The notes under the pieces: generated by a model
Told to the model about the DNA's origin: nothing
Database searches by the model: none
The model's input: the letters and a program-made list of their open reading frames with translations, nothing else
Origin: an uncultured Clostridia bacterium
GTDB taxonomy: Bacteria; Bacillota; Clostridia; Oscillospirales; Oscillospiraceae
Assembly (NCBI GenBank): GCA_945877515.1
Contig: CAMCSE010000014.1
Span: forward strand, 1 to 37,937
Length of the DNA: 37,937 bases
Reading direction: 5' to 3'
Part shown: piece by piece, positions 1-12,660 of the stretch
How positions within the stretch are numbered: position 1 is the first letter of the stretch
How the letters are laid out: every line of letters starts with the position of its first letter
Translations under genes and position numbers: made by a program

Positions 1-479
1 AGAAGATGCTCAAGGAGCTGCAGCGGAACGCGGCCTTCATGGATCCCACCCGCGCTGCCGCCCATCTGGTGGGCAGTCAGGGCGACGCCATGAAGATGGC
101 AGCTTCCAACACGGCTGCCGGCCCTGCCATGGCCTTTATGGGCATGGGAATGGCCGGTCAGGCCGGCGGCATGAACGCCCAGAACCTGTTCGCCATGGGT
201 CAGCAGCAGGCCGCCCAGCAGCCTGTACAGCAGGCCGCTCCCGCCGGCTGGACCTGCTCCTGCGGCCACGGCGGCAACACCGGCAAGTTCTGCGCCGAGT
301 GCGGCCAGCCCAAGCCCGCCCCCGCCGGCGAGTGGAAGTGCGCCTGCGGCGCGGTGAACACCGGCAAATTCTGCGCCGAATGCGGCCAGCCCAAGCCTGC
401 CAGCGACGAGTGGACGTGTGCGTGCGGAACGGTGAATAAGGGCAAGTTCTGCGCCAACTGCGGCAGCCCCCGCCCCTGA
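1..479 (+). CDS. SPFH-family protein, C-terminal part with three zinc ribbons (5' end outside window)
   Basis: The frame is open from the left edge, so this is the C-terminus of a longer gene. The visible part begins with an Ala/Met/Gly-rich region (many GMGM and AMAF-like stretches), typical of the segment after the SPFH domain in YdjI-like proteins. From about base 249 there are three tandem zinc-ribbon units, each of the form W-x-C-x-C-G, then G-K-F-C-A-x-C-G-x-P. Each unit offers four cysteines for one zinc. In B. subtilis the YdjI SPFH/zinc-ribbon protein is membrane-associated and works with PspA and YdjG/YdjH. The YdjG-like and TPM genes further along this strand support the same assignment. 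The SPFH domain itself is not in the window, so the family call is inferred from the tail and the neighbours. Confidence 0.7.
   Translation, partial: KMLKELQRNAAFMDPTRAAAHLVGSQGDAMKMAASNTAAGPAMAFMGMGMAGQAGGMNAQNLFAMGQQQAAQQPVQQAAPAGWTCSCGHGGNTGKFCAECGQPKPAPAGEWKCACGAVNTGKFCAECGQPKPASDEWTCACGTVNKGKFCANCGSPRP
249..476 (+). repeat. Three tandem zinc-ribbon coding repeats
   Basis: Three successive units of roughly 25 codons repeat the pattern CxCG...GKFCAxCGxPxP. The first two units are nearly identical at their ends (FCAECGQPKP). The third has diverged (FCANCGSPRP). This indicates internal duplication of a zinc ribbon within the SPFH-type protein. Confidence 0.85.
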
Positions 480-484
480 CCGGG

Positions 485-1033
485 ATGAAGTGGAAGCTTC
501 TCTGGATATTCCTGATCGGTGCGGTAGTAGGTATTGCTATGTCGGGGCTTTATAAACACTTTGTGACGGATCGGATCATGGACGGTGATGGTATGATGAA
601 CGAGTTTGCAAACGCCTTTCGGGATGGTGACACGCTGAAAAGCATACGCTGGTCGCAGAGTGCTTCGTGCTACGACGACTGTTTCCGCTTTGATTTGGAG
701 GAGACAGACGGTGCGTATACCATCTCCGGGTGGTGCATCGACACCGAGGGTAGCCGAGAAAGGGTAGAGCGGATAGACGCGCCCCTGACATCGGAGCAAT
801 GGGCTGAGGTGGAAACGTGCCTTCGGGAGAACTGGCATCAACCGCCCAGAGCCTTGCCAGAGGGGGTGTCTGTCCTTGACGGGACGGAGAGCTACCTCCA
901 CATCACCAGCCAGAGAGAGGACGAGATTCTCACGGCAGAATACAACGGTGAGTATGAGGACGTCCTGAGGACGCTCCTGTGGGAGCTCCTTATAGGTACC
1001 TCCGAGGAATATGCTCCGGCAGAGGAAGATTAA
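485..1033 (+). CDS. Small membrane-anchored protein of unknown function
   Basis: This 182-residue protein has an N-terminal hydrophobic helix (about residues 4-22, with no lipobox cysteine) followed by an acidic soluble domain that probably faces outside the membrane. The start lies 5 bases after the stop of the SPFH gene. There is no convincing Shine-Dalgarno sequence (only CCGGG), so translation is probably coupled to the upstream gene. I do not recognise a family. The soluble part contains two cysteines close together (SCYDDC) and ends in an acidic tail. Its position between the SPFH and DUF5684 genes suggests a role in the same envelope cluster, but this is only inference. Confidence 0.75.
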   Translation: MKWKLLWIFLIGAVVGIAMSGLYKHFVTDRIMDGDGMMNEFANAFRDGDTLKSIRWSQSASCYDDCFRFDLEETDGAYTISGWCIDTEGSRERVERIDAPLTSEQWAEVETCLRENWHQPPRALPEGVSVLDGTESYLHITSQREDEILTAEYNGEYEDVLRTLLWELLIGTSEEYAPAEED

Positions 1034-1159
1034 GCACACCGTACCCAGCCGCCCTATCAGCCTCAGGCGTAGGTGAGCCATTCTCCCGATTTCTACCCAT
1101 TATGCGGCGTGAAGCGCGGTGGCAAAAGATTCTGTCTGGATTGGGCAACAACCCTGTGA
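1034..1159 (+). pseudogene. Decayed zinc-ribbon C-terminus remnant
   Basis: In the frame starting at 1043 the DNA reads TQPPYQPQA, then an in-frame TAG at 1070. After that come FYPLCG, a linker, KRFCLDW and a stop at 1157. This matches the end of the next gene (a Gln/Pro linker, FCPSCG, then KFCQNC), but the first and last zinc cysteines have become Tyr and Trp and a stop interrupts the linker. There is no start codon or RBS for this frame. It looks like the eroded 3' end of a duplicate of the DUF5684/zinc-ribbon gene. Confidence 0.6.
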
Positions 1160-1224
1160 CAACAAATCACATTAGTCGGCAAGCACACTGCCAGCCGGCG
1201 ATGTCGTTAGGAAAGGAGAAAGCA

Positions 1225-2040
1225 ATGTACGATTATTCCGATTATTACGATTATTACGATTACAGCAGTACCCCGACCTTTAACCCGCTGCCCACCATTA
1301 TCTCGCTTGTCCTGTGCGTGTTTGTTCTGGTGTGCATGTGGATTATCTTCCGGAAGGCCGGTAAGCCCGGCTGGGCGGCCATTGTTCCCTTCTACAATCT
1401 CTATGTGCTGTTTGATATCACTTGGGGCAGCGGTATGCGCTTCCTGCTGATGCTGATCCCCCTCTATAACATCATTCTGGGTATCCAGACACAGATTCGG
1501 CTGGCCAAGGCATTCGGCAAGGGCGGTGGCTTTGCGGCGGGACTGATTTTCCTGCCCTATGTTTTCATGCCCCTGCTGGCTTTCGGCAAAGGAACGTATC
1601 AGGGCGTTCCTATCAAGGCAGCCCCTTATCAGAACAATCCCTACCAGAACAACCCCTATCAGAGTAATCCCTATCAGCAGGGCGGCTATTCCCAGCAGCC
1701 TCATCAGCCCTATCAGAATCCCTATTCCCAGCAGCCCCAGCAGCCCCAGCCTGTCCAGCAGGTTCCCTATGGCACCGCGTCTCAGCAGGGCTACCAGCAG
1801 CCGCAGTATAACGTGCCCCAACAGGGCTATCAGCAGCCCCAGCAGTATACAGCGCCCCAGCAGCCGCAGCAGCCTGCGCCTCAGCAGACGGCTCCCCAGC
1901 AGCCACAGCAGCCTGCCCCTCAGCAGCCTATCCCCCAGCAGCCGGAGGCGGAGACCCGCGCTTCCACTTTTTGCCCCAGCTGCGGAGCGAAGAGCAACGG
2001 TGAGAAATTCTGCCAGAACTGCGGTGCCCCTTTGCGCTGA
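1225..2040 (+). CDS. DUF5684-type membrane protein with Gln/Pro-rich linker and C-terminal zinc ribbon
   Basis: The protein has 271 residues. It starts with an unusual Asp/Tyr-rich segment (YDYSDYYDYYDYS). A hydrophobic domain of about residues 20-130 follows, with the FRKAGKPGWAAIVPFYN signature typical of DUF5684 membrane proteins and several predicted membrane segments. Next is a long Tyr/Gln/Asn/Pro repeat linker (about 135-240). A four-cysteine zinc ribbon closes the protein (C250, C253, C263, C266). ATG 1225 is chosen over upstream in-frame starts because GAAAGGAG lies just before it and the domain starts there. The same topology (membrane module, flexible linker, zinc ribbon) recurs in neighbouring genes, suggesting the ribbons are shared interaction modules. 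The molecular function is unknown. Confidence 0.85.
   Translation: MYDYSDYYDYYDYSSTPTFNPLPTIISLVLCVFVLVCMWIIFRKAGKPGWAAIVPFYNLYVLFDITWGSGMRFLLMLIPLYNIILGIQTQIRLAKAFGKGGGFAAGLIFLPYVFMPLLAFGKGTYQGVPIKAAPYQNNPYQNNPYQSNPYQQGGYSQQPHQPYQNPYSQQPQQPQPVQQVPYGTASQQGYQQPQYNVPQQGYQQPQQYTAPQQPQQPAPQQTAPQQPQQPAPQQPIPQQPEAETRASTFCPSCGAKSNGEKFCQNCGAPLR
1621..1950 (+). repeat. Low-complexity Tyr/Gln/Asn/Pro coding repeat
   Basis: The stretch encodes tandem PYQNN/PYQSN/PYQQG units followed by QQPQQP-type repeats, with CAGCAGCC as the recurring DNA core. It is a disordered linker between the membrane domain and the zinc ribbon, and it is prone to slippage and length variation. Confidence 0.8.
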
Positions 2041-2101
2041 TCCTTCCTGCCATAGTTGGACGGAATAACAAATGACGATGCAAAAAGAAAGGAAACTTAT
2101 C

Positions 2102-2518
2102 ATGAAAAAATCGATTGCGCTTATATTGGCCGTGTTGATGACGCTGTCCCTTGCTGCTTGCGGCGGTGGTGGCGGCAGCAGCGATAAGGGCGGCGCTCTG
2201 CCCGGCATTGATATGAAATCCACGGATACACAGACCGTGACCTCTGACAGAGCAACGCTGGAAGTGCTGAACGAGACATTCTTCACCTATCTGGGTGGCC
2301 TGAACTACTTCACCGAAGATGATGCGCAGTCGAAGCTGACCTATGCGGATCTGAAGGATCATATCGGCGTGGATTGCTCCGACTATCGGTATGAAGAGGA
2401 GTACCAGCGCGGTGTATACACCTGGTACGCCCAAGAGGATGACGCGTGCGCACTGGCCCTTTTCTTCGGCGACAACGGCAAGCTGATCGCTGCCGGCGCG
2501 TACAACCTCAGCCTTTGA
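2102..2518 (+). CDS. Small lipoprotein of unknown function
   Basis: The protein has 138 residues. It carries a lipoprotein signal (MKKS n-region, hydrophobic core, lipobox LAAC with Cys20), followed by a Gly/Ser/Asp linker and a soluble domain of about 100 residues with Tyr/Asp/Glu-rich content. ATG 2102 is preferred over ATG 2072 because AAAGGA precedes it at good distance and it gives a proper signal peptide. The mature protein should be lipidated by Lgt, processed by LspA (encoded at 13645-14145) and held on the outer face of the membrane. I do not recognise the domain, and it lacks the post-Cys motif of the larger lipoproteins downstream. Confidence 0.85.
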   Translation: MKKSIALILAVLMTLSLAACGGGGGSSDKGGALPGIDMKSTDTQTVTSDRATLEVLNETFFTYLGGLNYFTEDDAQSKLTYADLKDHIGVDCSDYRYEEEYQRGVYTWYAQEDDACALALFFGDNGKLIAAGAYNLSL

Positions 2519-2560
2519 TTGACCCTGATTAACCGTATAAATATCTGAACGCCATTTTCC

Positions 2561-2587
2561 ACGGGAGCGGCCCAAAGCCGCTCCCGT
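2561..2587 (+). promoter_or_regulatory. Intercistronic stem-loop before the zinc-ribbon gene
   Basis: A perfect 10-bp stem (ACGGGAGCGG with CCGCTCCCGT) closes a 7-base loop. It lies 18 bases before the next start codon and just upstream of its GGAAAGGAG. No T-run follows, so it is more likely an mRNA processing, stability or attenuation element than a full terminator. Confidence 0.5.
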
Positions 2588-2605
2588 AGCGGAAAGGAGA
2601 AAGTA

Positions 2606-3745
2606 ATGGCATCCCAAATTACCAACTATAAATGCCCGGCATGTACCGGTCCCCTGCATTTTGTGGGGGCATCCGGTATGCTGGAATGCGATTTCTGCGG
2701 CGCGAAATATGACGTGGCGCAGATCGAAGCTCTGTACGCGGAGAAAGAGGCCAAGGCTATGGCCGCCACGGAGCAGGCCAACGCCAAGGCGGAACAGAAC
2801 CGCCAGAAAATAGCGGAGATGGAGTCGCAGGGCTGGGATACCTCCAGCCTCAGCAGTGACTGGGGCACGGAGGCCGACGGCATGAAGGCCTATTCCTGCC
2901 CCAGCTGCGGCGCGGAGCTGATCTGCGACGCGTCTACCGCCGCCACCTCCTGCCCCTACTGCGGCAATCCCACCGTGGTGCCGGGCCAGTTCAGCGGTGC
3001 GCTGAAGCCGGACTTCGTAATTCCCTTCAAGCTCAGCAAGGAGGATGCAGTGGCCGCCCTGAAGGACCACTATAAGGGCAAGCCCCTGCTGCCCAAGGCC
3101 TTTACCAACGGCAACCACATCGAGGAGATCAAGGGCGTGTACGTCCCCTTCTGGATGTTTGACGGACAGGCGGAGGGCAGCGTGGACTATGAAGGTCTGA
3201 TCATCCACGTCTATGAGAGCGGCGACTACGAGATTACCGAGACAGAGCATTATGACGTGCGCCGCGGCGGCTCCATTGCCTTCGAGAAGGTGCCGGTGGA
3301 CGCATCCAGCAAGATGCCTGACGACCACATGGACTCCATCGAGCCTTACAATTATAAGGATCTGCGGGCCTTTTCCACGGCGTATCTGCCGGGCTTTCTG
3401 GCGGATAAGTACGATGTGACGGTGGAGCAGAGTCAGGAGCGGGCGGATGGACGCTGCGCCGCGTCTCTGGAGGGCGCGCTGCACCGCACCACCACGCAGT
3501 ACAGCTCCTGCATCCCCAAGAGCCGGAACATCAATCTGCGGCGCGGCAAGGTGCATTACGCACTGCTGCCTGTCTGGATGCTGCACACCAAGTGGAACGG
3601 CAAGGACTTCCTCTTTGCCATGAACGGACAGACCGGCAAGCTGGTAGGCGACCTGCCTACGGACATGGGCAAGTTCTGGGCCATCTTCGCCGCCATTGCC
3701 GCACCGGTGACGGCTATCGCGGCGACGATACTGATGTTGATGTAA
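2606..3745 (+). CDS. TFIIB-type double zinc-ribbon membrane protein, YdjG-like
   Basis: The protein has 379 residues. The first zinc ribbon uses C10, C13, C28 and C31. A charged helical stretch (about 40-75) follows, then a second ribbon with C98, C101, C116 and C119. A beta-rich central domain (about 130-345, containing VYVPFWMFDG) comes next, and a C-terminal membrane helix (about 355-379) ends the protein. This is the architecture of the TFIIB-zinc-ribbon proteins found with PspA/SPFH/TPM genes, such as B. subtilis YdjG. AAAGGAG precedes ATG 2606. The TPM gene follows 14 bases after the stop. The likely role is a membrane-bound partner of the SPFH/TPM proteins with its ribbons in the cytoplasm; this is inferred from the family context. 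Confidence 0.8.
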   Translation: MASQITNYKCPACTGPLHFVGASGMLECDFCGAKYDVAQIEALYAEKEAKAMAATEQANAKAEQNRQKIAEMESQGWDTSSLSSDWGTEADGMKAYSCPSCGAELICDASTAATSCPYCGNPTVVPGQFSGALKPDFVIPFKLSKEDAVAALKDHYKGKPLLPKAFTNGNHIEEIKGVYVPFWMFDGQAEGSVDYEGLIIHVYESGDYEITETEHYDVRRGGSIAFEKVPVDASSKMPDDHMDSIEPYNYKDLRAFSTAYLPGFLADKYDVTVEQSQERADGRCAASLEGALHRTTTQYSSCIPKSRNINLRRGKVHYALLPVWMLHTKWNGKDFLFAMNGQTGKLVGDLPTDMGKFWAIFAAIAAPVTAIAATILMLM

Positions 3746-3759
3746 GGAGGGCGGCTGAG

Positions 3760-4542
3760 ATGAAAAAAAGAATTCTGACATATCTGCTGGCCCTGCTGGC
3801 GGTACTGACGATGGCGGTTCCCGCATGGGCGGAGCAGACCGAGGATGACCTCTTCATTTATGACACGGTGGGCCTGCTGGACGAGGACGAGTGGCTGGAG
3901 CTGGAGCTGATGGCCGATGAGATCTCGTGGCGGTATAACTGCGGTGTGTACATTGTCACTGTGGACGACTACGAGGACTACAACAGCGATATCCACTATG
4001 CGGCGGTGGCCATCTATGACGGCAACGACTTTGGTATCGGCGAAAACCGTGAGGGCATCATGCTGATGCTGAGCATGTACGACCGGGACTATGATCTGTT
4101 CGTCCGTGACGGCGGTACTGCCGAGTACGCAGTCAACAAATATGGACGCCATCAGATGACGGAGGTCTTTCTGGACAACTTCGCCGACAATGACTGGAAA
4201 GGTGGTTTTGAGGACTATCTGTCCGCCTGCGGCGAATATCTGGACCGTGCCGAGCAGGGACACCCTGTCCGCAAGCCGCTGGTGAAGGTGCTGCCTATGG
4301 CACTGGGTATCGGCGTGGTGCTGGCGATAGCGGTGTGCCTGTTCCTGAAGAGCAAAATGAAGACCGTCCGTCAGGGCGCGGAAGCGGACACCTATGTGAC
4401 CGCCGAGGGCCTGAACCTGACGGAGCGGTATGACCGCTATACACACACCACTGAGACCCGCCGAAAGATCTCTAAGGACAGCGACAGCGGCAGCAGTGAT
4501 CACTCCGGCGGCGGCGGCTCCAGTACAAGCGGTAAGTTCTAG
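3760..4542 (+). CDS. TPM-domain membrane protein, YdjH-like
   Basis: The protein has 260 residues. It carries a signal peptide (about 1-24, ending AWA), then an extracytoplasmic TPM-fold domain (about 27-165), one membrane helix (about 173-196) and a cytoplasmic tail ending in GGGGSSTSGKF. Gly/Ser-rich ends of this kind are usual for TPM proteins. The RBS TAAGGAGG overlaps the stop codon of the zinc-ribbon gene, so the two are almost certainly co-translated. TPM domains occur in the plant TLP18.3 phosphatase and in bacterial envelope proteins. In B. subtilis the YdjH protein partners YdjG. Enzymatic activity cannot be judged from the sequence. The gene is the last recognisable member of the Ydj-like module before the lipoprotein array. 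Confidence 0.8.
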   Translation: MKKRILTYLLALLAVLTMAVPAWAEQTEDDLFIYDTVGLLDEDEWLELELMADEISWRYNCGVYIVTVDDYEDYNSDIHYAAVAIYDGNDFGIGENREGIMLMLSMYDRDYDLFVRDGGTAEYAVNKYGRHQMTEVFLDNFADNDWKGGFEDYLSACGEYLDRAEQGHPVRKPLVKVLPMALGIGVVLAIAVCLFLKSKMKTVRQGAEADTYVTAEGLNLTERYDRYTHTTETRRKISKDSDSGSSDHSGGGGSSTSGKF

Positions 4543-4567
4543 TACTACGCAACGGAAGGAGGAAGCG

Positions 4568-5704
4568 ATGAAAAAGAACCTCATTCTCTGTCTGCTGCTG
4601 GCTCTGGCGATGATGGTATCGCTGACAGCATGCCAGGTAGAAATTCCTGGCATTGGAACCGTGAATATCAACGACGGCAGCACAGGCGGCAATGCGGGCG
4701 GCGATAATACGATCCATACGGGAAGCGACAATGATGAATCCCTTGCCTTGCTGCGGAAGAGCATGGCAGAGGTGCCGGACTATATCTTCGCGGCGGCCTA
4801 TATCAGCAGCGCGGCAGGCGGCCCGGACGATTTTGAGCTTCCGATACAGGAATGGGTGAGTAAGGCGGCGCCGGAACTGTGCGCCCAGTATCCCTTCGTT
4901 CGGAATATTCCCCGTGAGCGGGTGGTGGGCAGCGGCGGCAGCCTGTTCTGCGTGGTGCCCCGTGACCCCAACGCATCTGTGGTGGTGAACCGCATCCAAT
5001 GGAATGAGAAGGCCGGTGGCTACGATAACGTCGAGGTACTCTACCGCAGCGAGAGCGGCGAGCCGTTTCTGGTGTTTGCCTGCGCCGACATGGGGGAGGC
5101 GATCGATCCCGACACCGAGGTGATCGTGACCAACAGCGGAGAAGAGCCCCTGAAATGGTATCCCTACTACGGTATGGTGGCGCTGCCCTATTCCCCTGAG
5201 GACGGCCGTGAGCTGGGTTACGACTTTACCGTTTACACCGGAAACGACAGCATGGATGGCGGCGATGTGGGCGACGATGGCATGTGGACGGCCCCTACGG
5301 CGGAGCAGCTGGCCGCGTACGTCTGGACGTGGCAGGGCGATCTTGCGGAGCAGCCCGCCATGGCCACCATGTCCCTGACACAGGACAGCGGCACGGAGCC
5401 GGGACAGATCACCTTCACATGGTGGTATACCAAGGACTACGGCGATCCGCAGGAGATCTATGAGGGCAGCTGGAAGCTGACGGACGGCGGGCAACTGATG
5501 GATCTGACCATGACCCGCACCGGCGGCCAGCAGTATACAAAGGGCGAGGCGCCCACCACGGTGTCGGGTGCGTTCCCTGTGCAGGTACCCGCGGCCTTCG
5601 ATATTTTCCCGGTGCTGAACGTGGCCGGCGGAGGCGGCGCCGACGGACTTCCCATCCAGCAGATACCCTACGAGCTTTTTATGTTTGACCCCGCGCAGGG
5701 ATAA
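4568..5704 (+). CDS. Lipoprotein paralogue 1 of tandem family, function unknown
   Basis: The protein has 378 residues. The lipoprotein signal has lipobox LTAC (Cys22), followed directly by the family motif QVEIPGIGTVNI and a flexible Gly/Asn/Asp linker. The first domain (about 55-225) contains FAAAYI, IPRERVVGSGG and CVVPRDPNA. The second domain (about 235-378) contains QPAMATMSL, TFTWWY, a YEGSW element and DLTMTRTGG. The second domain resembles a lipocalin-like or META-like beta barrel in its alternation, but I cannot assign it. ATG 4568 follows GGAAGGAGG. It is the first copy of the array, 25 bases downstream of the TPM gene and probably in the same transcript. The protein is expected on the outer face of the membrane. 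Confidence 0.85.
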   Translation: MKKNLILCLLLALAMMVSLTACQVEIPGIGTVNINDGSTGGNAGGDNTIHTGSDNDESLALLRKSMAEVPDYIFAAAYISSAAGGPDDFELPIQEWVSKAAPELCAQYPFVRNIPRERVVGSGGSLFCVVPRDPNASVVVNRIQWNEKAGGYDNVEVLYRSESGEPFLVFACADMGEAIDPDTEVIVTNSGEEPLKWYPYYGMVALPYSPEDGRELGYDFTVYTGNDSMDGGDVGDDGMWTAPTAEQLAAYVWTWQGDLAEQPAMATMSLTQDSGTEPGQITFTWWYTKDYGDPQEIYEGSWKLTDGGQLMDLTMTRTGGQQYTKGEAPTTVSGAFPVQVPAAFDIFPVLNVAGGGGADGLPIQQIPYELFMFDPAQG

Positions 5705-5736
5705 GTGATACCAAAACGCAGGAAGGAGGCAACGCC

Positions 5737-6905
5737 ATGAACAAGTACTGGAAGAGACCGGCCACGCTGACTGTGATCGTGTTGCTGGTTTTATGATGAC
5801 GCTGCCACTGACAGCCTGCCAGATCGAAATCCCCGGCATCGGAACCGTGAATATCAAGGATAGCGATTTGCCAAACAACGGCGGCAATATGAGCGGCGAT
5901 GATGGCGGTGATGATGTGGACGGTGTCAACACAGAGGGCGGCTATGATGATTCCCTCGACCTGCTGCGCAAGGAGATGGACGCACCGTCCTATATGTTTG
6001 CGGCGGCATACATCTGCAGTGCGGCAGGCGGTTCGGACGATTTTGAGTTTCCCATGCGGGATTGGGTGAATGAGGCGACACCGGAGCTGTGCGCCAAGTA
6101 TTCGTTTCTCCGGGATATCCCGCGGGAGCGGGTGGTGGGCAGCGGCGGCAATCTGTACTGCGTGGTGCCCCGTGACCCCAATGCCTCTCTCGAGGTGAAC
6201 CGCATCCGCTGGAACGCGAGAATAGATAATTACGAAATTGTAGAGGAGCTATACCGCAGTCAGAGCGGCGAGCCGATTCTGCTGTTTGCCTGCGCCGAAA
6301 TGCAGAGTAGAGCCTATCCCGACACAGAAGTGGTTGTGACGGACAGCACCGGCAGGGATGTTGCATGGTATCCCATTTACGGTGCAATGGCACTGCCCTA
6401 CGACTTCTATAACGACGTGCCGCAGGGCTACGACTTTACCGTTTACACGCAAGAAGAGAATGGTGATATCGACGGCGACGTGCGGTGGATCGGCGCCACG
6501 GGAGAGCAGTTGACTGAGTATATCTGGACGTGGGAGGGTGATTATGAGAATCAGCCCGCCATGGCCACCATGTCCCTGACCCGGGGCAATAGCGCGGATC
6601 AGGGACGGATCACCTTCAAGTGGTGGTATAGCGAGGACAACGGCGATCCGCAGGAGGTTTATGAGGGCGACTGGCTGCTGACAGACGGCGGGAAATTTCT
6701 GGGTTTGACCATGACCCGCACCAGCGGCCGGCAGTATAAAAAGGGCGAGGCATCCACCTCGGTGGAGGGCGCGTTCCGTATTCAGGTGCCTGAGGCTTTT
6801 GATATTGTCCCGGTCCTGAATATTTCTGAGGGTGCAAAGGGTGAACGGCTTCCCATTCAGCAGATACCCAATGAACTGCTCATGTTCAACCCCTCTCAGG
6901 GGTAA
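5737..6905 (+). pseudogene. Lipoprotein paralogue 2, frameshifted in the signal peptide
   Basis: GGAAGGAGG precedes ATG 5737, which opens a normal lipoprotein n-region and hydrophobic core (MNKYWKRPATLTVIVLLVL), but the frame stops at TGA 5794. The rest of the protein (370 residues from ATG 5793, starting MMTLPLTACQ) is intact in the next frame. Copy 3 reads CTGGCTTTTATGATG where this copy reads CTGGTTTTATGATG, so one base has been lost. Stop and restart overlap as ATGA, so reinitiation could make the body of the protein. It would then have only eight residues before the lipobox cysteine and no charged n-region, and would probably stay in the cytoplasm. The downstream domains match copy 1 closely and show no further damage, so the mutation is recent, phase-variable or a sequencing error. 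Confidence 0.75.
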
Positions 6906-6935
6906 ATAACAAGAAAAAGCGGAAAGGAGGCACCC

Positions 6936-8111
6936 ATGCGTAATAATCGGAAGAAACTGGTCAGGCTTCTTGTGGCGGCGCTGCTGGCTTTTATGATGAC
7001 GCTGTCGCTGACAGGGTGTCAGGTGGAGATACCCGGCATGGGAACCATCAACATCAGTGACGGAACGACCGCCGACGGAACAGGCGGCACGAACGGCGGC
7101 AATATAGGCGGCGAGCCGGGGGCCTACGACGATTCTCTGGATCTACTGCGGCAGTGGCTGGATGAGCGTCAGCAGGACGAGCGCTTCGCGGTGGCCTACA
7201 TCGGCGATATCGACGGCAAGCTGAGTGATCTGGCACTTCCGCTGCGGGATTGGATGAATGATAAGGCACCGATGCTGTGCGCCGAGTATCCGTTCATCCG
7301 AAATATCCCACAGGAGCGGGTGGTGGACGACAGAGGAAGCCTGTTCTGCGTGGTGCCCCGTGATCCCGACGCCACCGTGGTGGTGAACCGCATCCGGTGG
7401 AGCGAGGTGAAGGGCGACTACGAGACCATTAAGGAGCTTTACCGCAGCCAGAGTGGCGAGCCGATCCTGCTGTTTGTCTCCTACGATCTGGAGAAGACTC
7501 CCTTTGAAACCACGGAGCTGCGTTTGACCGACCGCTATGGCGATACCCTGAGCTGGCTCCCCACCACCGGAGCGGTGTCGCTGCCTTACGACTATCAGAA
7601 CGAGAGAAACCTGGCCATGGACTTCACCTTTTACTCGCAGGAGGGGAACGATGGAGACGACGGCAGCGACTTTGGCTGGACCTGCCCCGACGGCTCTCAG
7701 CTGACGCAGAGACTGTGGGTGTGGAATGGGGAGACGGATAAGCCCGCGATTGCCACCTTGGAGCTGAACGCCAACAGCAGTCAGGAGAACTATTGGGGCT
7801 CGGGCACCTTTATCTGGTGGTATGAGAGTGACTATACGACACCGGAAGAGGTCTATGAGGGCGAATGGTCGCTGAGCGCCAACGGGGAATACTCCGGCGT
7901 GCTGACACTGGATATGACCCGCACCGACGGCAAGAGATACAAGTCCGGCGAGACGGATCGGCTTATTCATGACAGCTTTATTGTTCAGGTGCCCATGCTC
8001 TTTGAGGACTACAACTGTCTGGCCGTTGACAAGGGTACGCACGGCTCCTATCTGCCCGTTCAGATGGAGCCGGAAACGGTACTTTATTTCTATCCCCAGT
8101 GGACGGAGTAA
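6936..8111 (+). CDS. Lipoprotein paralogue 3 of tandem family
   Basis: The protein has 391 residues. The n-region is strongly basic (RNNRKK) and the lipobox is LTGC (Cys28), followed by the family motif QVEIPGMGTINI. The N-terminal domain shares FAVAYIGD, IPQERVV and CVVPRDPDA with the other copies. The C-terminal domain contains FIWWYE, YEGEW and LDMTRT. AAAGGAGG lies before ATG 6936. Compared with copies 1-2 the linker is shorter and the C-terminus ends in YFYPQW instead of the FxPxQG type. Its function is unknown; it is presumably an externally displayed lipoprotein. Confidence 0.85.
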   Translation: MRNNRKKLVRLLVAALLAFMMTLSLTGCQVEIPGMGTINISDGTTADGTGGTNGGNIGGEPGAYDDSLDLLRQWLDERQQDERFAVAYIGDIDGKLSDLALPLRDWMNDKAPMLCAEYPFIRNIPQERVVDDRGSLFCVVPRDPDATVVVNRIRWSEVKGDYETIKELYRSQSGEPILLFVSYDLEKTPFETTELRLTDRYGDTLSWLPTTGAVSLPYDYQNERNLAMDFTFYSQEGNDGDDGSDFGWTCPDGSQLTQRLWVWNGETDKPAIATLELNANSSQENYWGSGTFIWWYESDYTTPEEVYEGEWSLSANGEYSGVLTLDMTRTDGKRYKSGETDRLIHDSFIVQVPMLFEDYNCLAVDKGTHGSYLPVQMEPETVLYFYPQWTE

Positions 8112-8141
8112 GCGTGTGTGAACACGGAAAGGAGGCGACCC

Positions 8142-9314
8142 ATGCGTAATAATGGGAAGAAACTGGTCAGGCTTCTTGTGGCGGCGCTGTTGGCCTTGGC
8201 CATGACGCTGTCGCTGGCAGGGTGTCAGGTGGAGATCCCCGGCATGGGAACTATCAATATCAGTGACGGAACGACCACCGGCGGAACAGGCGGCGGCAAC
8301 ACGGGCGGCGGTATGGGCGGCGAGCCGGGTGCCTACGACGATTCTCTGGATCTGCTGCGGCAGGAGCTGGATGACCGGCAGCAGGACGAGCGTTTCGCGG
8401 TGGCCTACATCGGCGATATCGACGGCAAGCTGAGTGATCTGGCGGTTCCCCTGCGGGACTGGATGAACGATACAGCGCCGGGGCTGTGCGCCCAGTATAC
8501 CTTTGTTCGGAATATCCCGCAGGAGCGGGTGGTGGGCGACAGCGGAAGCCTGTTCTGCGTGGTGCCCCATGACCCCAACGCCACCGTGGCGGTGAACCGC
8601 GTCCGATGGAACGAGGCGAAGGGCGGCTACGAGACTGTTGAGGTGCTCTATCGCAGCGAGAGCGGCGAGCCGATCCTGCTGTTTGTCTCCAACGATCTGG
8701 GGACTGTCCCCACCGATACCACGGAGCTGCTTTTGACCGACAGCCATTCCGATACCCTGAGCTGGTATCCCATCCCCGGAATAGTGGCGCTGCCCTACGA
8801 CTATGAGAACGACCGGAAGCTGGCCTATGACTTCACCTTTTACTCGCAGGAGGGGAACGACGGCTTCGGCAGCGACATCGGCTGGACGTGTCCCTCCGGC
8901 TCCCAGCTGACGCAGGAGTTATGGGCGTGGCAGGGAAATACGGATAAGCCCGCTCTGGCCACTCTGGAGCTGCACGCCAACAGCAGTCAGGAGGACTACT
9001 GGGGCACGGCGACCTTTACATGGTGGTACGAAAGCGACTTCGTCACACCGGAGGAGGTCTATACAGGCGACTGGGGACTGACCGGCAACGGGGAATACTC
9101 CGGCGTGATCATGCTGGATCTGACCCGCACCGGCGGCAAGAGATACACGCCCGGCGAGACGGAACGGATCATCCACGATAGCTTCATCGTGCAGGTGCCC
9201 ATGGCCTTTGAGGACTTTACCTATCTGGCCATTGACAAGGGTGAGCACGGCTCGTATCTGCCCATTCAGATGGAGCCGGACACGGTACTTTATTTCTATC
9301 CCCAGTGGGAGTGA
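8142..9314 (+). CDS. Lipoprotein paralogue 4 of tandem family
   Basis: The protein has 390 residues and is the closest relative of paralogue 3. The signal peptide with lipobox LAGC (Cys28) is nearly base-for-base the same as in copy 3, and the first and second domains line up throughout. ATG 8142 is chosen over ATG 8118 because AAAGGAGG sits directly before it and the start matches copy 3. The family motif QVEIPGMGTINI follows the cysteine. The linker is glycine-rich (GGTGGGNTGGGMGGEPG). The C-terminus again ends in YFYPQW. Substitutions relative to copy 3 are spread through the body, which suggests both genes are maintained as proteins. Confidence 0.85.
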   Translation: MRNNGKKLVRLLVAALLALAMTLSLAGCQVEIPGMGTINISDGTTTGGTGGGNTGGGMGGEPGAYDDSLDLLRQELDDRQQDERFAVAYIGDIDGKLSDLAVPLRDWMNDTAPGLCAQYTFVRNIPQERVVGDSGSLFCVVPHDPNATVAVNRVRWNEAKGGYETVEVLYRSESGEPILLFVSNDLGTVPTDTTELLLTDSHSDTLSWYPIPGIVALPYDYENDRKLAYDFTFYSQEGNDGFGSDIGWTCPSGSQLTQELWAWQGNTDKPALATLELHANSSQEDYWGTATFTWWYESDFVTPEEVYTGDWGLTGNGEYSGVIMLDLTRTGGKRYTPGETERIIHDSFIVQVPMAFEDFTYLAIDKGEHGSYLPIQMEPDTVLYFYPQWE

Positions 9315-9348: not shown

Positions 9349-9453
9349 ATGCGTAAATGCTGGAAAGGGCTGGCGGTGATCCTTGGGATCGCGCTGGTGG
9401 CCTTGGTTTTGTTCACTTGGCGCGGAGCGCGCCGGAAAAATAACGACGAATAA
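9349..9453 (+). CDS. 34-residue single-helix membrane protein, possible stub of a fifth lipoprotein copy
   Basis: A strong GGAAAGGAG precedes ATG 9349. The product has a basic start (MRKCWKG), one hydrophobic helix (about residues 8-24) and a very basic tail (RGARRKNN). The upstream sequence GTGAACACGGAAAGGAG also stands before lipoprotein copy 4, and the start ATGCGTAA is shared too. The gene may therefore be what remains of a fifth copy's signal peptide, now ending after the helix and lacking a lipobox. It could still be made as a small membrane protein. The stop lies 14 bases before the next gene. Confidence 0.5.
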   Translation: MRKCWKGLAVILGIALVALVLFTWRGARRKNNDE

Positions 9454-9467
9454 TGGAGGTAAAACAC

Positions 9468-10577
9468 ATGAAAAGAGGCAGAAAAACCTTATTCGCCCTG
9501 CTGTTGGCCCTGGTCATGACACTGGGTCTGGCCGCCACCGCATGGGCAACGGGGGTGGTACCCACCGACACTTTGGAACTTACGATTACGAAAATAGTGG
9601 AGCAAACGGGCGATGTAACGCCTCCCGCGGAAACCTTCACATTTGTGTTGGAGGATTGGGTAAAGGAGGGGGAAAAGCATGACCCTGCGTACTATGGCAT
9701 CACGCTGGAAAAATTGGAGATATCCACTGCCACAGGCAATGAAATTACAAAAACCTTTGCTGTTCAAATTGATCCGGAAAAAGTCAATGCAGAAAACGGT
9801 TGGCAAGGCTACGGCAATAACACGCCTTCGGCGCCCATTCGCTGGTATAGCAAGTCCTTCCTTCTGAAAGAGGTGGATGACGGCAAGGCGGGATGGCAGT
9901 ATTCTACCAAGGAATATGAAGTGGTCTTCACATATGACCTCGAAGGCCAAGATATGGAGCTTGAGGTCTATAAGCCTGGGACTGATGCGAGGGAGCCGGC
10001 TGAATTCACGAACATTTATACGGAGAATCTTGCTACCGTTGAGGTTCCCTTCACCAAGACGGTGAAGCTGGGCGGCAACAGAGCCCCCGGCAAGACAGAC
10101 TTTACGCTGGATATTTTTAAAGTTGGAAACGGCAATAAAGGGGAATATAAGGACGTAACGTACACGGCTGTCGTGACCACCAAAGGTGCGGGCGACTATG
10201 ACGGCAAGCTGATCATCAGCGGCCCGGAAGAACAGGTTCGGCAATATATCAGTGAGGGTATTTCTGTCTGTGAGGTGGACGGCGGCGCCAGAGGCTGGAC
10301 GTACTCCACTGCCAAGTGGTATATTGACTTTTCCTCCAGAGAGGATCAGGACGGAAAGCCGCTGCCTACGATTCATCCGTACGATGTTCAGGGCGCTCCG
10401 GTGGACAAGATGACCTTTGAGAACATTTATACCCGCAACACTTCTTCCCATACTACCACAGATGAAAAGCCGATTTCCTCTCCCAAGACATTTGACGCCG
10501 GTGTGGCGCTGTACGGCGTAAGCGCCCTGCTGTCGCTGACCGGAACCGCGCTGGTCATCAAGCGCAAGAACGGCTGA
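9468..10577 (+). CDS. Pilin-like surface protein with two repeated domains and a noncanonical sorting signal
   Basis: The protein has 369 residues. A signal peptide (about 1-28, ending AWA) is followed by two homologous domains (about 35-185 and 190-325). Each ends in F-[TE]-N-I-Y-T, the asparagine-bearing strand typical of Spy0128-like pilin domains that form Lys-Asn isopeptide bonds. The C-terminus has SPKTFDAG, a hydrophobic helix (VALYGVSALLSLTGTALVI) and the basic end KRKNG. This is the layout of a sortase signal, but with Phe-Asp where LPxTG proteins have Gly. ATGGAGG precedes ATG 9468. No sortase gene lies in this window. The intramolecular crosslinks are inferred from the domain pattern only. 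Confidence 0.7.
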   Translation: MKRGRKTLFALLLALVMTLGLAATAWATGVVPTDTLELTITKIVEQTGDVTPPAETFTFVLEDWVKEGEKHDPAYYGITLEKLEISTATGNEITKTFAVQIDPEKVNAENGWQGYGNNTPSAPIRWYSKSFLLKEVDDGKAGWQYSTKEYEVVFTYDLEGQDMELEVYKPGTDAREPAEFTNIYTENLATVEVPFTKTVKLGGNRAPGKTDFTLDIFKVGNGNKGEYKDVTYTAVVTTKGAGDYDGKLIISGPEEQVRQYISEGISVCEVDGGARGWTYSTAKWYIDFSSREDQDGKPLPTIHPYDVQGAPVDKMTFENIYTRNTSSHTTTDEKPISSPKTFDAGVALYGVSALLSLTGTALVIKRKNG

Positions 10578-10632
10578 TTGACCGATACGCATTTCCTTTG
10601 AGATCAATCTGCAAACACCTCATCTAAAATAG

Positions 10633-10671
10633 CCATAAGGCGGCGGACATCACCTGTCCGCCGCCTTATGG
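10633..10671. terminator. 17-bp perfect stem-loop, probable terminator between surface protein and thioredoxin remnant
   Basis: Arms of 17 bases, starting CCATAAGGCGG and ending CCGCCTTATGG, pair perfectly around the loop TCACC. The element lies between the end of the plus-strand surface-protein gene and the end of the minus-strand thioredoxin remnant, where a bidirectional terminator is expected. No clear T-run follows on either strand. Confidence 0.6.
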
Positions 10672-10705
10672 CGCGTATTCCTCCTTGCGGGGAAACCTCC
10701 GTTTG

Positions 10706-10852
10706 TCAGCCCCTATCGGCGGAGAGCGCCTTGTCGATTTGGGCTTGCAGTGCCTCCGCCTGCTTCTTTTCCGTAATAGCGCCCACGATGGGGTCGCCCA
10801 CGATGTTGCCGTTCCTGTCAACCACATAGGTGGTGGGATAGGCAAAGATATA
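10706..10852 (-). pseudogene. 3' remnant of a thioredoxin-like (TlpA/redoxin) gene
   Basis: Read on the minus strand, 48 codons before a TGA give FAYPTTYVVDRNGNIVG, then PIVGAITEKK and a helical end. The PTTYVVDRNG pattern is the cis-proline strand and following hairpin of TlpA/redoxin-type thioredoxin folds. The part carrying CxxC and the signal peptide is missing: homology stops at about 10852, at a small palindrome, and IS21-like DNA begins. It therefore appears to be a gene cut by insertion or deletion. This remnant and the stem-loop are all I see between 10578 and 10881. Confidence 0.7.
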
Positions 10853-10864
10853 GTCTCAGACTAT
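10850..10864. repeat. Short palindrome at the thioredoxin/IS21 junction
   Basis: ATAGTCT-C-AGACTAT is a perfect 7-bp inverted repeat with a one-base centre. It lies exactly where thioredoxin homology ends and the mobile DNA begins. It may be a terminal repeat or a target-site footprint, but this is not certain. Confidence 0.35.
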
Positions 10865-10881
10865 ATAGGGGGCGAACAAAG

Positions 10882-11315
10882 GTGGTTATTACAGTGGAAA
10901 TTTACAAAGAGATTCGCAAGATGCGGTTGAACGGCATGAGCCAGCGGCAAATCGCCGCAACGCTCCACATCTCCCGCAATACCGTCAAAAAGTACTGGGA
11001 CGGCGACAGCGTCCCCTGGGAGCGGAAGGACTACTCCAGGGAAGCCTCCGTGCTTACCGAGGATGTAGTGGCATTTGTAAGACGCTGCCTGGATGAAGAT
11101 AGCCATTGCAAATCCAGGAAGCAGCATCACACCGCCAAGCGGATCTATGACCGGCTGGTGACTGAATGCGGCTTTACCGGCGGCGAGACGACCATCAGGC
11201 GGCTGGTGAAGGAGCTTCGCGAGAAGAGCCAGGAGGCATTCGTTCCATTGGCGTTCCCGGCGGGAGATGCGCTGCAAATTGACTGGGGTGAGGCTACCGT
11301 CTATCTGGACGGTGC
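10882..11315 (+). pseudogene. 5' fragment of IS21-family transposase gene istA
   Basis: From GTG 10882 about 145 residues match the N-terminal part of IstA. They contain a helix-turn-helix (MSQRQIAATLHISRNTVKK) and a second DNA-binding region with RIYDRLVTE and TTIRRLVKEL. The start of the catalytic domain follows, with LQIDWGEATVYLDG, where Asp of QIDWGE is the first DDE residue. Similarity ends near 11315. The frame then runs meaninglessly into recombinase DNA until 11505, so the rest of istA, and istB, are missing. The fragment cannot transpose. Its 3' end is fused to the tyrosine recombinase remnant, evidence for nested insertion and deletion. Confidence 0.75.
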
Positions 11316-12393
11316 CAAAAGCAAAGAAAAAATATACTTACCTGACAAAAGCAATTCAACTTCCAGATGGAACACGAAAATACATCCGGGGGAAAGACCA
11401 GAAGGAACTGGAAGAAAAGGTGTTAAAGGCGCAGATCCTGGTCAATGCCGGAGTGGATATTTGCAGCGAGGAGACCTTCGGACATTTTGCCCAGATGTGG
11501 TATGACATTTATAAGAAGCCGTACCTCCGGGAAAACAGTCTTTTGTCTATTAAAAACAGTCTCAACACGCACATCCTTCCATACTTTGGGAACTATCGTC
11601 TGCGGGATATTACTGCTATGCAAGTGCAGGCTCTTATGGCAGCGCTTTCAAGCAAAAGTAAATCTCTTCAGTCCAAGGTTCTGGCTATTCTCCGCAATAT
11701 TTTCTGCATTGCACAGGAAAATGGGCTCGTTGCAAAATCCCCTGTCAGCGTAACGCTGAGAGCAGGTGGAAAGAAGACTCAAGAAAAGATAGCTCTAACA
11801 CCGGAAGAAAGTGAACTACTTTTATCCCGTATAAAAAAAGGGCAAAAACTTTTGCGATGATAGCTCTGAACACAGGAATGCGACGTGGCGAAATTATAGC
11901 ACTCCGTTGGAAAGATATTGATTTCCGAGAGAAGATTATCCACGTTAGCAGTAACGCACTTGTGAAAGAGGGAAAAACAGAGGTTGATGCGGAAGTAAAA
12001 ACTCCTGCGGCAGTACGCAACATTCCGCTCCCTGAAGCGCTGGAGAAATGGCTTTTACAGCAGAAGCCACTATCTCACTCGCAGTTTGTGTTGGCGATGG
12101 AAAATCATCAGGCATTGACGAAAAGCTCATTCCGCAGTATGTGGAGATTGGTGGAACGAGAGCTACCGAATAAACATCTGACAGCACATATTTTGCGACA
12201 CACTTATATCACAAGATTGTTTGAAGCTGAATTGGACATCAAAGAGGTGCAGTATCTTGCTGGCCACAGTACTGTGGATATGACCTTGCGTGTTTACACG
12301 CATTATGATCGTCAAAGCAGGGAAAAACAAACCATCGAGAAAGTGCGTGAAGCATTTCGGAAGGAGTCGTCTCGAGAAATTTGCAACAGGTGA
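11316..12393 (+). pseudogene. Tyrosine recombinase (integrase), start missing and frameshifted
   Basis: The reading frame from about 11316 shows a Tn916/ICE-type integrase N-terminal arm (LPDGTRKYIRGK), then the SAM-like core-binding domain (FGHFAQMWYDIYKKPYLREN...). It runs to a TGA at 11858-11860. The catalytic domain continues in another frame from AMIALNTGMRRGEI. The shift is one base, near the A-runs at 11832-11848. Catalytic residues are all present: Arg in GMRRGE, HILRHTY (HxxR), LAGHST and Tyr in RVYTHYD. The native start codon is lost because the IS21 fragment replaces the upstream DNA. Without the damage it would be about 360-380 residues. The gene points at tRNA-Val, the usual position for an integrase beside its attachment site. 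Confidence 0.75.
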
Positions 12394-12583: not shown

Positions 12584-12660
12584 TGGTGCGCGGTACAGGA
12601 CTCGAACCTGTGACCCCATGCACGTCAAGCATGTGCTCTAGCCAGCTGAGCTAACCGCGC
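12584..12660 (-). tRNA. tRNA-Val (anticodon GAC)
   Basis: The minus strand folds into a complete cloverleaf of 77 bases including an encoded CCA. The acceptor stem is GCGCGGT/ACCGCGC with discriminator A. The D arm is GCTC...GAGC, and the anticodon stem CATGC/GCATG carries the loop TTGACGT (anticodon GAC). The variable loop has five bases. The T arm is ACAGG-TTCGAGT-CCTGT. A GAC anticodon reads valine codons GUC and GUU. It has its own promoter and terminator. The 3' end faces the integrase remnant, making it a plausible attachment site. Confidence 0.95.

Follow-up and report, generated by a model that had tools for sequence, protein, structure and literature searches.

The closest described counterpart of the locus considered here is the pspA-ydjGHI operon of Bacillus subtilis, which, according to the excerpts of the cited papers on which the comparisons below draw, encodes an SPFH protein with a C-terminal zinc ribbon, a double-zinc-ribbon membrane protein and a TPM membrane protein (PMC8581546), and which is named ydjFGHL in a second account (PMC11237479). 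Interaction partners of YdjH, the likely membrane anchor, include YdjG, YdjI and PspA (PMC8581546), and a chaperone-like role in assembly has been favoured for TPM and band-7 domains (PMC11237479). The same three protein types are encoded in one operon by a clostridial cassette at the start of the window, i.e. the whole 37,937-bp contig C14 of a metagenome-assembled genome (MAG; 1.65 Mb, 80.6% complete) from an uncultured member of the Oscillospiraceae. In contrast to the B. subtilis order pspA-ydjG-ydjH-ydjI, however, the clostridial order is SPFH-(...)-YdjG-TPM, no PspA was found, and there are extra genes, varying by cassette, for DUF5684, DUF4428, DUF6935, TM2 and lipoproteins, with lipoproteins bearing a domain here called LIP placed after TPM.

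This arrangement, which is conserved, extends an operon type already known, and the order in which lipoprotein genes follow TPM, repeated in two cassettes of the same MAG and in other genera, is more than chance. The reading preferred here, with a probability of roughly 0.42, is that the window holds one copy of a PspA-free clostridial SPFH-YdjG-TPM scaffold operon with an acquired outer lipoprotein layer, used for ligand sensing or for the organisation of surface proteins. It builds on the order and conserved linkage of the genes, on the architecture of the domains, on signals of topology and on the lack of PspA above cut-off.

In the co-component sensors VtrA/VtrC and ToxR/ToxS (PMC9214523) a lipocalin-like extracytoplasmic barrel is paired with a membrane partner, an arrangement that the clostridial proteins may share; unlike in those systems, the putative clostridial barrel is part of a lipoprotein with an extra LIP domain, and the likeness suggested is one of structure. 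As for a membrane-bound helix-turn-helix partner, none of the ten genes of the cassette in the window, SPFH and LipD included, matched a helix-turn-helix family at E<=0.1. PspA-related operons (polyamine and CesT/Tir contexts; PMC11237479) also have lipoproteins in band-7/PspA-type contexts, but these are different ones (Ctha_1186, DUF1190, DUF4247), and the ydj paragraph of the excerpt names none. An initial sequence-only reading of the window had considered an outer-face part of such a system undescribed; indeed, no description of a lipoprotein outer-face part of an SPFH/YdjG/TPM system was found in the literature searched, within the excerpts available.

The cassette in the window

Ten genes, from SPFH to LipD (3-9314), lie on the + strand throughout, as judged from open reading frames (ORFs) and profile matches, and follow one another from base 3 in the order of Table 1. 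The sequence-only reading had listed SPFH/zinc-ribbon, DUF5684/zinc-ribbon, double-zinc-ribbon and TPM genes on one strand, 'fused' to five lipoproteins that follow TPM almost without gap. All four genes are present, and the tight spacing holds (14 bp for YdjG-TPM, 25 for TPM-LipA, 32 for LipA-LipB and 30 each for LipB-LipC and LipC-LipD), but the lipoproteins that follow TPM are four paralogues, and the Tm182 gene had been absent from the list. The operon is real, with its gene count corrected, and the term 'fused' applies to it as an operon and not as a protein fusion. Terminator-like matches on the + strand between 479 and 10577 are weak and all within ORFs (14 matches in all on both strands, against 7.4 expected), and a hairpin behind the FctA-like gene (10632-10672) has a terminator score on the - strand only. 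The transcript may extend past LipD into the 34-codon ORF, which is preceded by a Shine-Dalgarno-like sequence, and the FctA-like gene.

Regarding the scaffold proteins, window 1-1025 is 83% identical in DNA to the copy on contig C9 of the same MAG, whose complete SPFH protein matches PF13421 (2.5e-19; also matched in the B. subtilis control genome) and has CxxC motifs at 369/396/422, the window holding the C-terminus only. Tm182, which has no Pfam or NCBIfam match, has homologues adjoining SPFH in C9, C57, G027, G062, G237 and G183 (G, C and L numbers designate genomes, contigs and loci). The YdjG-like protein has paralogues on C9 (91% identical) and C70 (83% identical), its assignment being judged by four CxxC motifs and a C-terminal transmembrane (TM) segment. 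SPFH, like the zinc ribbons of the YdjG-like protein, is expected inside the cell. By hydropathy, the TPM protein has a signal peptide, an extracytoplasmic TPM domain, a TM segment at about 178-196 and a cytoplasmic tail, so that the TPM domain and the lipoproteins would share a compartment.

An AGGAGG motif, Shine-Dalgarno-like, stands ahead of the LipA ATG. In LipB the frame opened by ATG 5737 hits a stop early in the signal peptide (a frameshift), and the LipB slot of G027 has an internal deletion where the window gene has its frameshift. Over alignment positions 51-150 LipC and LipD are identical in G027, the window copies being 90% and 78% identical there; gene conversion has acted inside the G027 array (LipC/LipD). 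The LIP domain, which has a few partial, Ig-like structural matches, is a candidate new protein family. The 138-aa lipoprotein was seen to resemble LipA-D in its signal peptide only, gave no family over cut-off in profile searches and has homologues in C9 and G154.

Table 1. Coordinates of the cassette and the genes directly behind it in the window
Feature	Position	Strand	Basis or remarks
SPFH/Band_7_1 (YdjI-like), C-terminal part (tail + zinc ribbons)	3..479	+	ORF; 5' end off contig
Tm182, 182-aa membrane protein	485..1033	+	single N-terminal TM-like segment
DUF5684 membrane protein, C-terminal zinc ribbon	1216..2040	+	PF18936 5.6e-21; three TM-like segments
138-aa lipoprotein, 5' of YdjG-like gene	2102..2518	+	lipobox in ORF
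YdjG-like protein	2606..3745	+	two zinc ribbons (CxxC 10, 28, 98, 116); C-terminal TM 360-378
TPM (YdjH-like) protein	3760..4542	+	PF04536 1.4e-14; hydropathy
LipA	4568..5704	+	LIP domain at window 4730-5236; putative lipocalin-like barrel at the C-terminus
LipB, frameshifted signal peptide	5737..6905	+	open frame from ATG 5793
LipC, lipoprotein paralogue	6936..8111	+	ORF
LipD, lipoprotein paralogue	8142..9314	+	possible GTG start 8118
34-codon single-TM ORF, small protein candidate	9350..9454	+	read by eye from sequence
FctA/Spy0128-like surface protein	9453..10577	+	PF12892 6.2e-8

Recurrence in the MAG and in related genomes

The same MAG holds two additional YdjG/TPM/LIP cassettes. The one on C9 is complete (lipoprotein, DUF6935, lipoprotein, SPFH, 180-aa membrane protein, TM/zinc ribbon, lipoprotein, YdjG, TPM and two LIP lipoproteins), and C70 carries YdjG, TPM and one LIP lipoprotein. 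A further piece on C57, with SPFH, Tm182 and a DUF4428-type gene, could have stood at the head either of the C70 cassette or of a fourth. The DNA behind the C9 cassette recurs with 98% identity at window 10555-10851; it takes in the 3′ end of a redoxin-family (AhpC-TSA) lipoprotein gene, and this points to the copying of a cassette together with its tail.

In the neighbourhood surveys genes were labelled by small hidden Markov models (HMMs) of our own, by a simple choice of ORFs and by a rule for lipoboxes; the distance of 12 kb and the line of 85 bits used for the linkage counts were set after the matches were seen, and seven LIP loci of the own genome as well as L027 (the same contig as G073:C22) were left out before counting. 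LIP was found in 21 of 250 genomes of the family, own MAG included, and a YdjG search with identical settings gave matches in 89 of 250, a part of them weak. Of the 15 strong LIP loci that lie outside the own MAG, 12 have SPFH or TPM on the same strand no more than 12 kb away, against a chance expectation of 0.6, and G183:C21, with a TPM tail at the contig end, is a thirteenth, so that the co-occurrence proposed for the Oscillospiraceae was recovered in 13/15. The remaining two are G266:C32, near a contig end, and the unlinked G073:C21, an SLH-LIP fusion. In nine of the 15, from five genera, the LIP gene is directly 3′ of TPM. These loci are partly non-independent, since G234 and G260 have exchanged DNA recently and one cassette each of G237 and G183 are 87-95% identical.

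Cassettes without LIP show the core: in a hand-picked, non-random sample of 20, SPFH-YdjG-TPM stand without an intervening gene in 10, and another lipoprotein gene lies beside the core in four (L083, L085, L086, L093). Beyond the core, enlarged cassettes contain DUF4428, TM2 and DUF6935 genes along with several for lipoproteins. Two cassette types also have 129-aa proteins that look receiver-like by eye, without a Pfam match, placed after the LIP gene or after DUF6935 (L023 4640-5029, L062 16908-17297), and behind the C70-type cassette of G027 lies a secreted-looking, cysteine-rich repeat protein of 951 aa with many CxxC motifs and no Pfam match (L023 5191-8046).

The suggested link to PspA was not borne out: in a likewise hand-picked, non-random set of 23 genomes (the own MAG, 80.6% complete, and 22 others; 21 of the 23 at least 90% complete), none has a PspA above the PF04012 cut-off, a single sub-threshold match being present in G073.

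The proposed outer layer and competing explanations

In the proposed mechanism, SPFH and YdjG-like proteins would build a zinc-ribbon-rich scaffold inside the cell, the TPM protein would span the membrane with its TPM domain outside, and the lipoproteins, anchored on the outer face, would adjoin that domain. The putative LipA barrel (residues 239-378), which hints at ligand binding, might take up an exported protein or a ligand that is hydrophobic or amphipathic (lipid, bile acid or peptide), and its bound state might be relayed via TPM to the inner scaffold. The coupling of the lipoprotein layer via TPM to a PspA-free scaffold is proposed from the TPM topology, the interactions of B. subtilis YdjH and the assembly role discussed in the excerpt of PMC11237479. 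Contact with TPM, ligand binding and signalling are inferred properties of the system, and a role in envelope stress is a guess by analogy.

Several observations limit this reading. VtrC/ToxS-type lipocalin-like barrels are among the top structural matches of the LipA C-terminal domain, but other barrels score nearly as high. Weak LIP matches within the same family are linked to SPFH or TPM in 2/11 only (the neighbourhoods of G090, G149, G094 and G186 were judged from match coordinates alone), and among 291 genomes of the class nine other LIP genomes, of other families, have 11 loci with none linked, three of them at contig ends with one side unseen (L100, L105, L107). At L099 a DUF4428-type gene (own HMM) adjoins LIP on the opposite strand, and in G082, a genome from the family of the window's MAG, LIP comes after DUF6935 and a further lipoprotein, with no SPFH gene. 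The linked group is therefore one subfamily of a wider lipoprotein family: strong relatives lie with SPFH/TPM genes and distant relatives away from them, and the idea that a YdjGHI-like system has been enlarged by an outer-face part of its own stands for that subfamily and not for the family at large. In one genus of another family (L101-L104) the LIP lipoprotein recurs beside ORFs of about 725-745 aa, with ORFs of about 930-1045 aa behind (L102-L104), a conserved context unlike the SPFH/TPM cassette.

The strongest alternative, in our view still rather unlikely, is that the scaffold is a station at which surface proteins are assembled or displayed, the lipoproteins, together with S-layer or pilin-like proteins in the cassette or next to it, being cargo or helpers instead of sensors. 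SLH proteins on the same strand are found in or beside LIP cassettes of four genomes: in G062 as one of the genes that separate SPFH from YdjG (L063 9023-11008), in G073 between LIP and SPFH (L072 7288-9540), and in G237 and G260 ahead of the first cassette genes. These proteins led us to lower the probability of sensing from 0.45 to 0.42 and to raise that of display slightly. In G073 a LIP domain is moreover fused to three SLH repeats outside any SPFH cassette (L077 7293-8441), in G266 an SLH protein lies near the LIP gene on the opposite strand, the FctA-like protein follows LipD in the window, and a chaperone-like function of TPM and band-7 proteins (PMC11237479, as excerpted) would fit such a station. 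Against it, surface proteins are tied to the cassettes less tightly than LIP is to TPM by gene order, the scanned neighbours of one cassette each in G183 (C39) and G124 (C75) contain no SLH or pilin family, and an FctA-like protein in G164, matched by our own HMM, was rejected when Pfam gave no confirmation. A SpaA/LPXTG protein of 2049 aa lies further upstream of the G073 cassette (L027).

It is very unlikely, by our estimate, that the cassette is a mobile fitness or defence island whose variable lipoproteins mask receptors or exclude phages, although several observations would suit one. In G260 a block that begins with the contig and extends to 38.3 kb, aligned in four pieces with a single gap of 2 kb and with the cassette included, is 94-99% identical to G234, which is assigned to a different genus, whereas at rpsI, the sole control locus, the two are 83% identical and G260 is 94-97% identical within its own genus. 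The block (L115-L118 in G260, L119-L124 in G234) also carries a large SLH/Big_2 protein, histidine-kinase-type genes and serine recombinases. Recombinase genes or fragments occur near the cassettes of G260, G237 and G183 (serine recombinases) and G234 (a tyrosine integrase fragment), and in the window a split integrase adjoins tRNA-Val. More specifically, window 10685-12393 holds the redoxin-family 3′ end fragment (98% to C9) and an N-terminus of helix-turn-helix/transposase type that continues, out of frame, into a split tyrosine integrase, followed by tRNA-Val at 12584-12660; together these are the remains of an integrated element. Tandem duplication, gene conversion and the two damaged LipB copies, one frameshifted and one internally deleted, would also suit an island. 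However, among 10 cassette proteins PADLOC matched YdjG only, and weakly (0.0057), and the correlation of YdjG with LIP distances (Mantel r 0.70, p 0.0001, n=15, own paralogues and near-identical pairs included) speaks against free shuffling. Least probable of all is that the lipoproteins are functionally untied neighbours that hitch-hike in the operon: LIP-free core cassettes and cassette-free LIP genes both occur, but the linkage of 13/15 strong loci and the TPM-LIP order shared by nine of them across five genera argue against it.

A broader extension of the sensing reading, unlikely as it stands, would be that flotillin-like SPFH/TPM scaffolds of gut-associated Firmicutes are transmembrane receptors, in which exchangeable lipoproteins on the outer face, built from a new domain and a lipocalin-like barrel, take up lipids, bile acids or peptides and control the inner zinc-ribbon scaffold; this would amount to PspA-free envelope sensing spread on mobile islands and diversified by tandem duplication and gene conversion. 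What the analysis suggests more directly is that SPFH/YdjG/TPM scaffolds can have an outer-face part with its own lipoprotein family. The Ydj-type gene set occurs in genomes where no PspA was found, and the lipoprotein family that recurs beside the TPM gene offers a concrete candidate for an outer-face partner of TPM/SPFH scaffolds, whose target thereby becomes testable.

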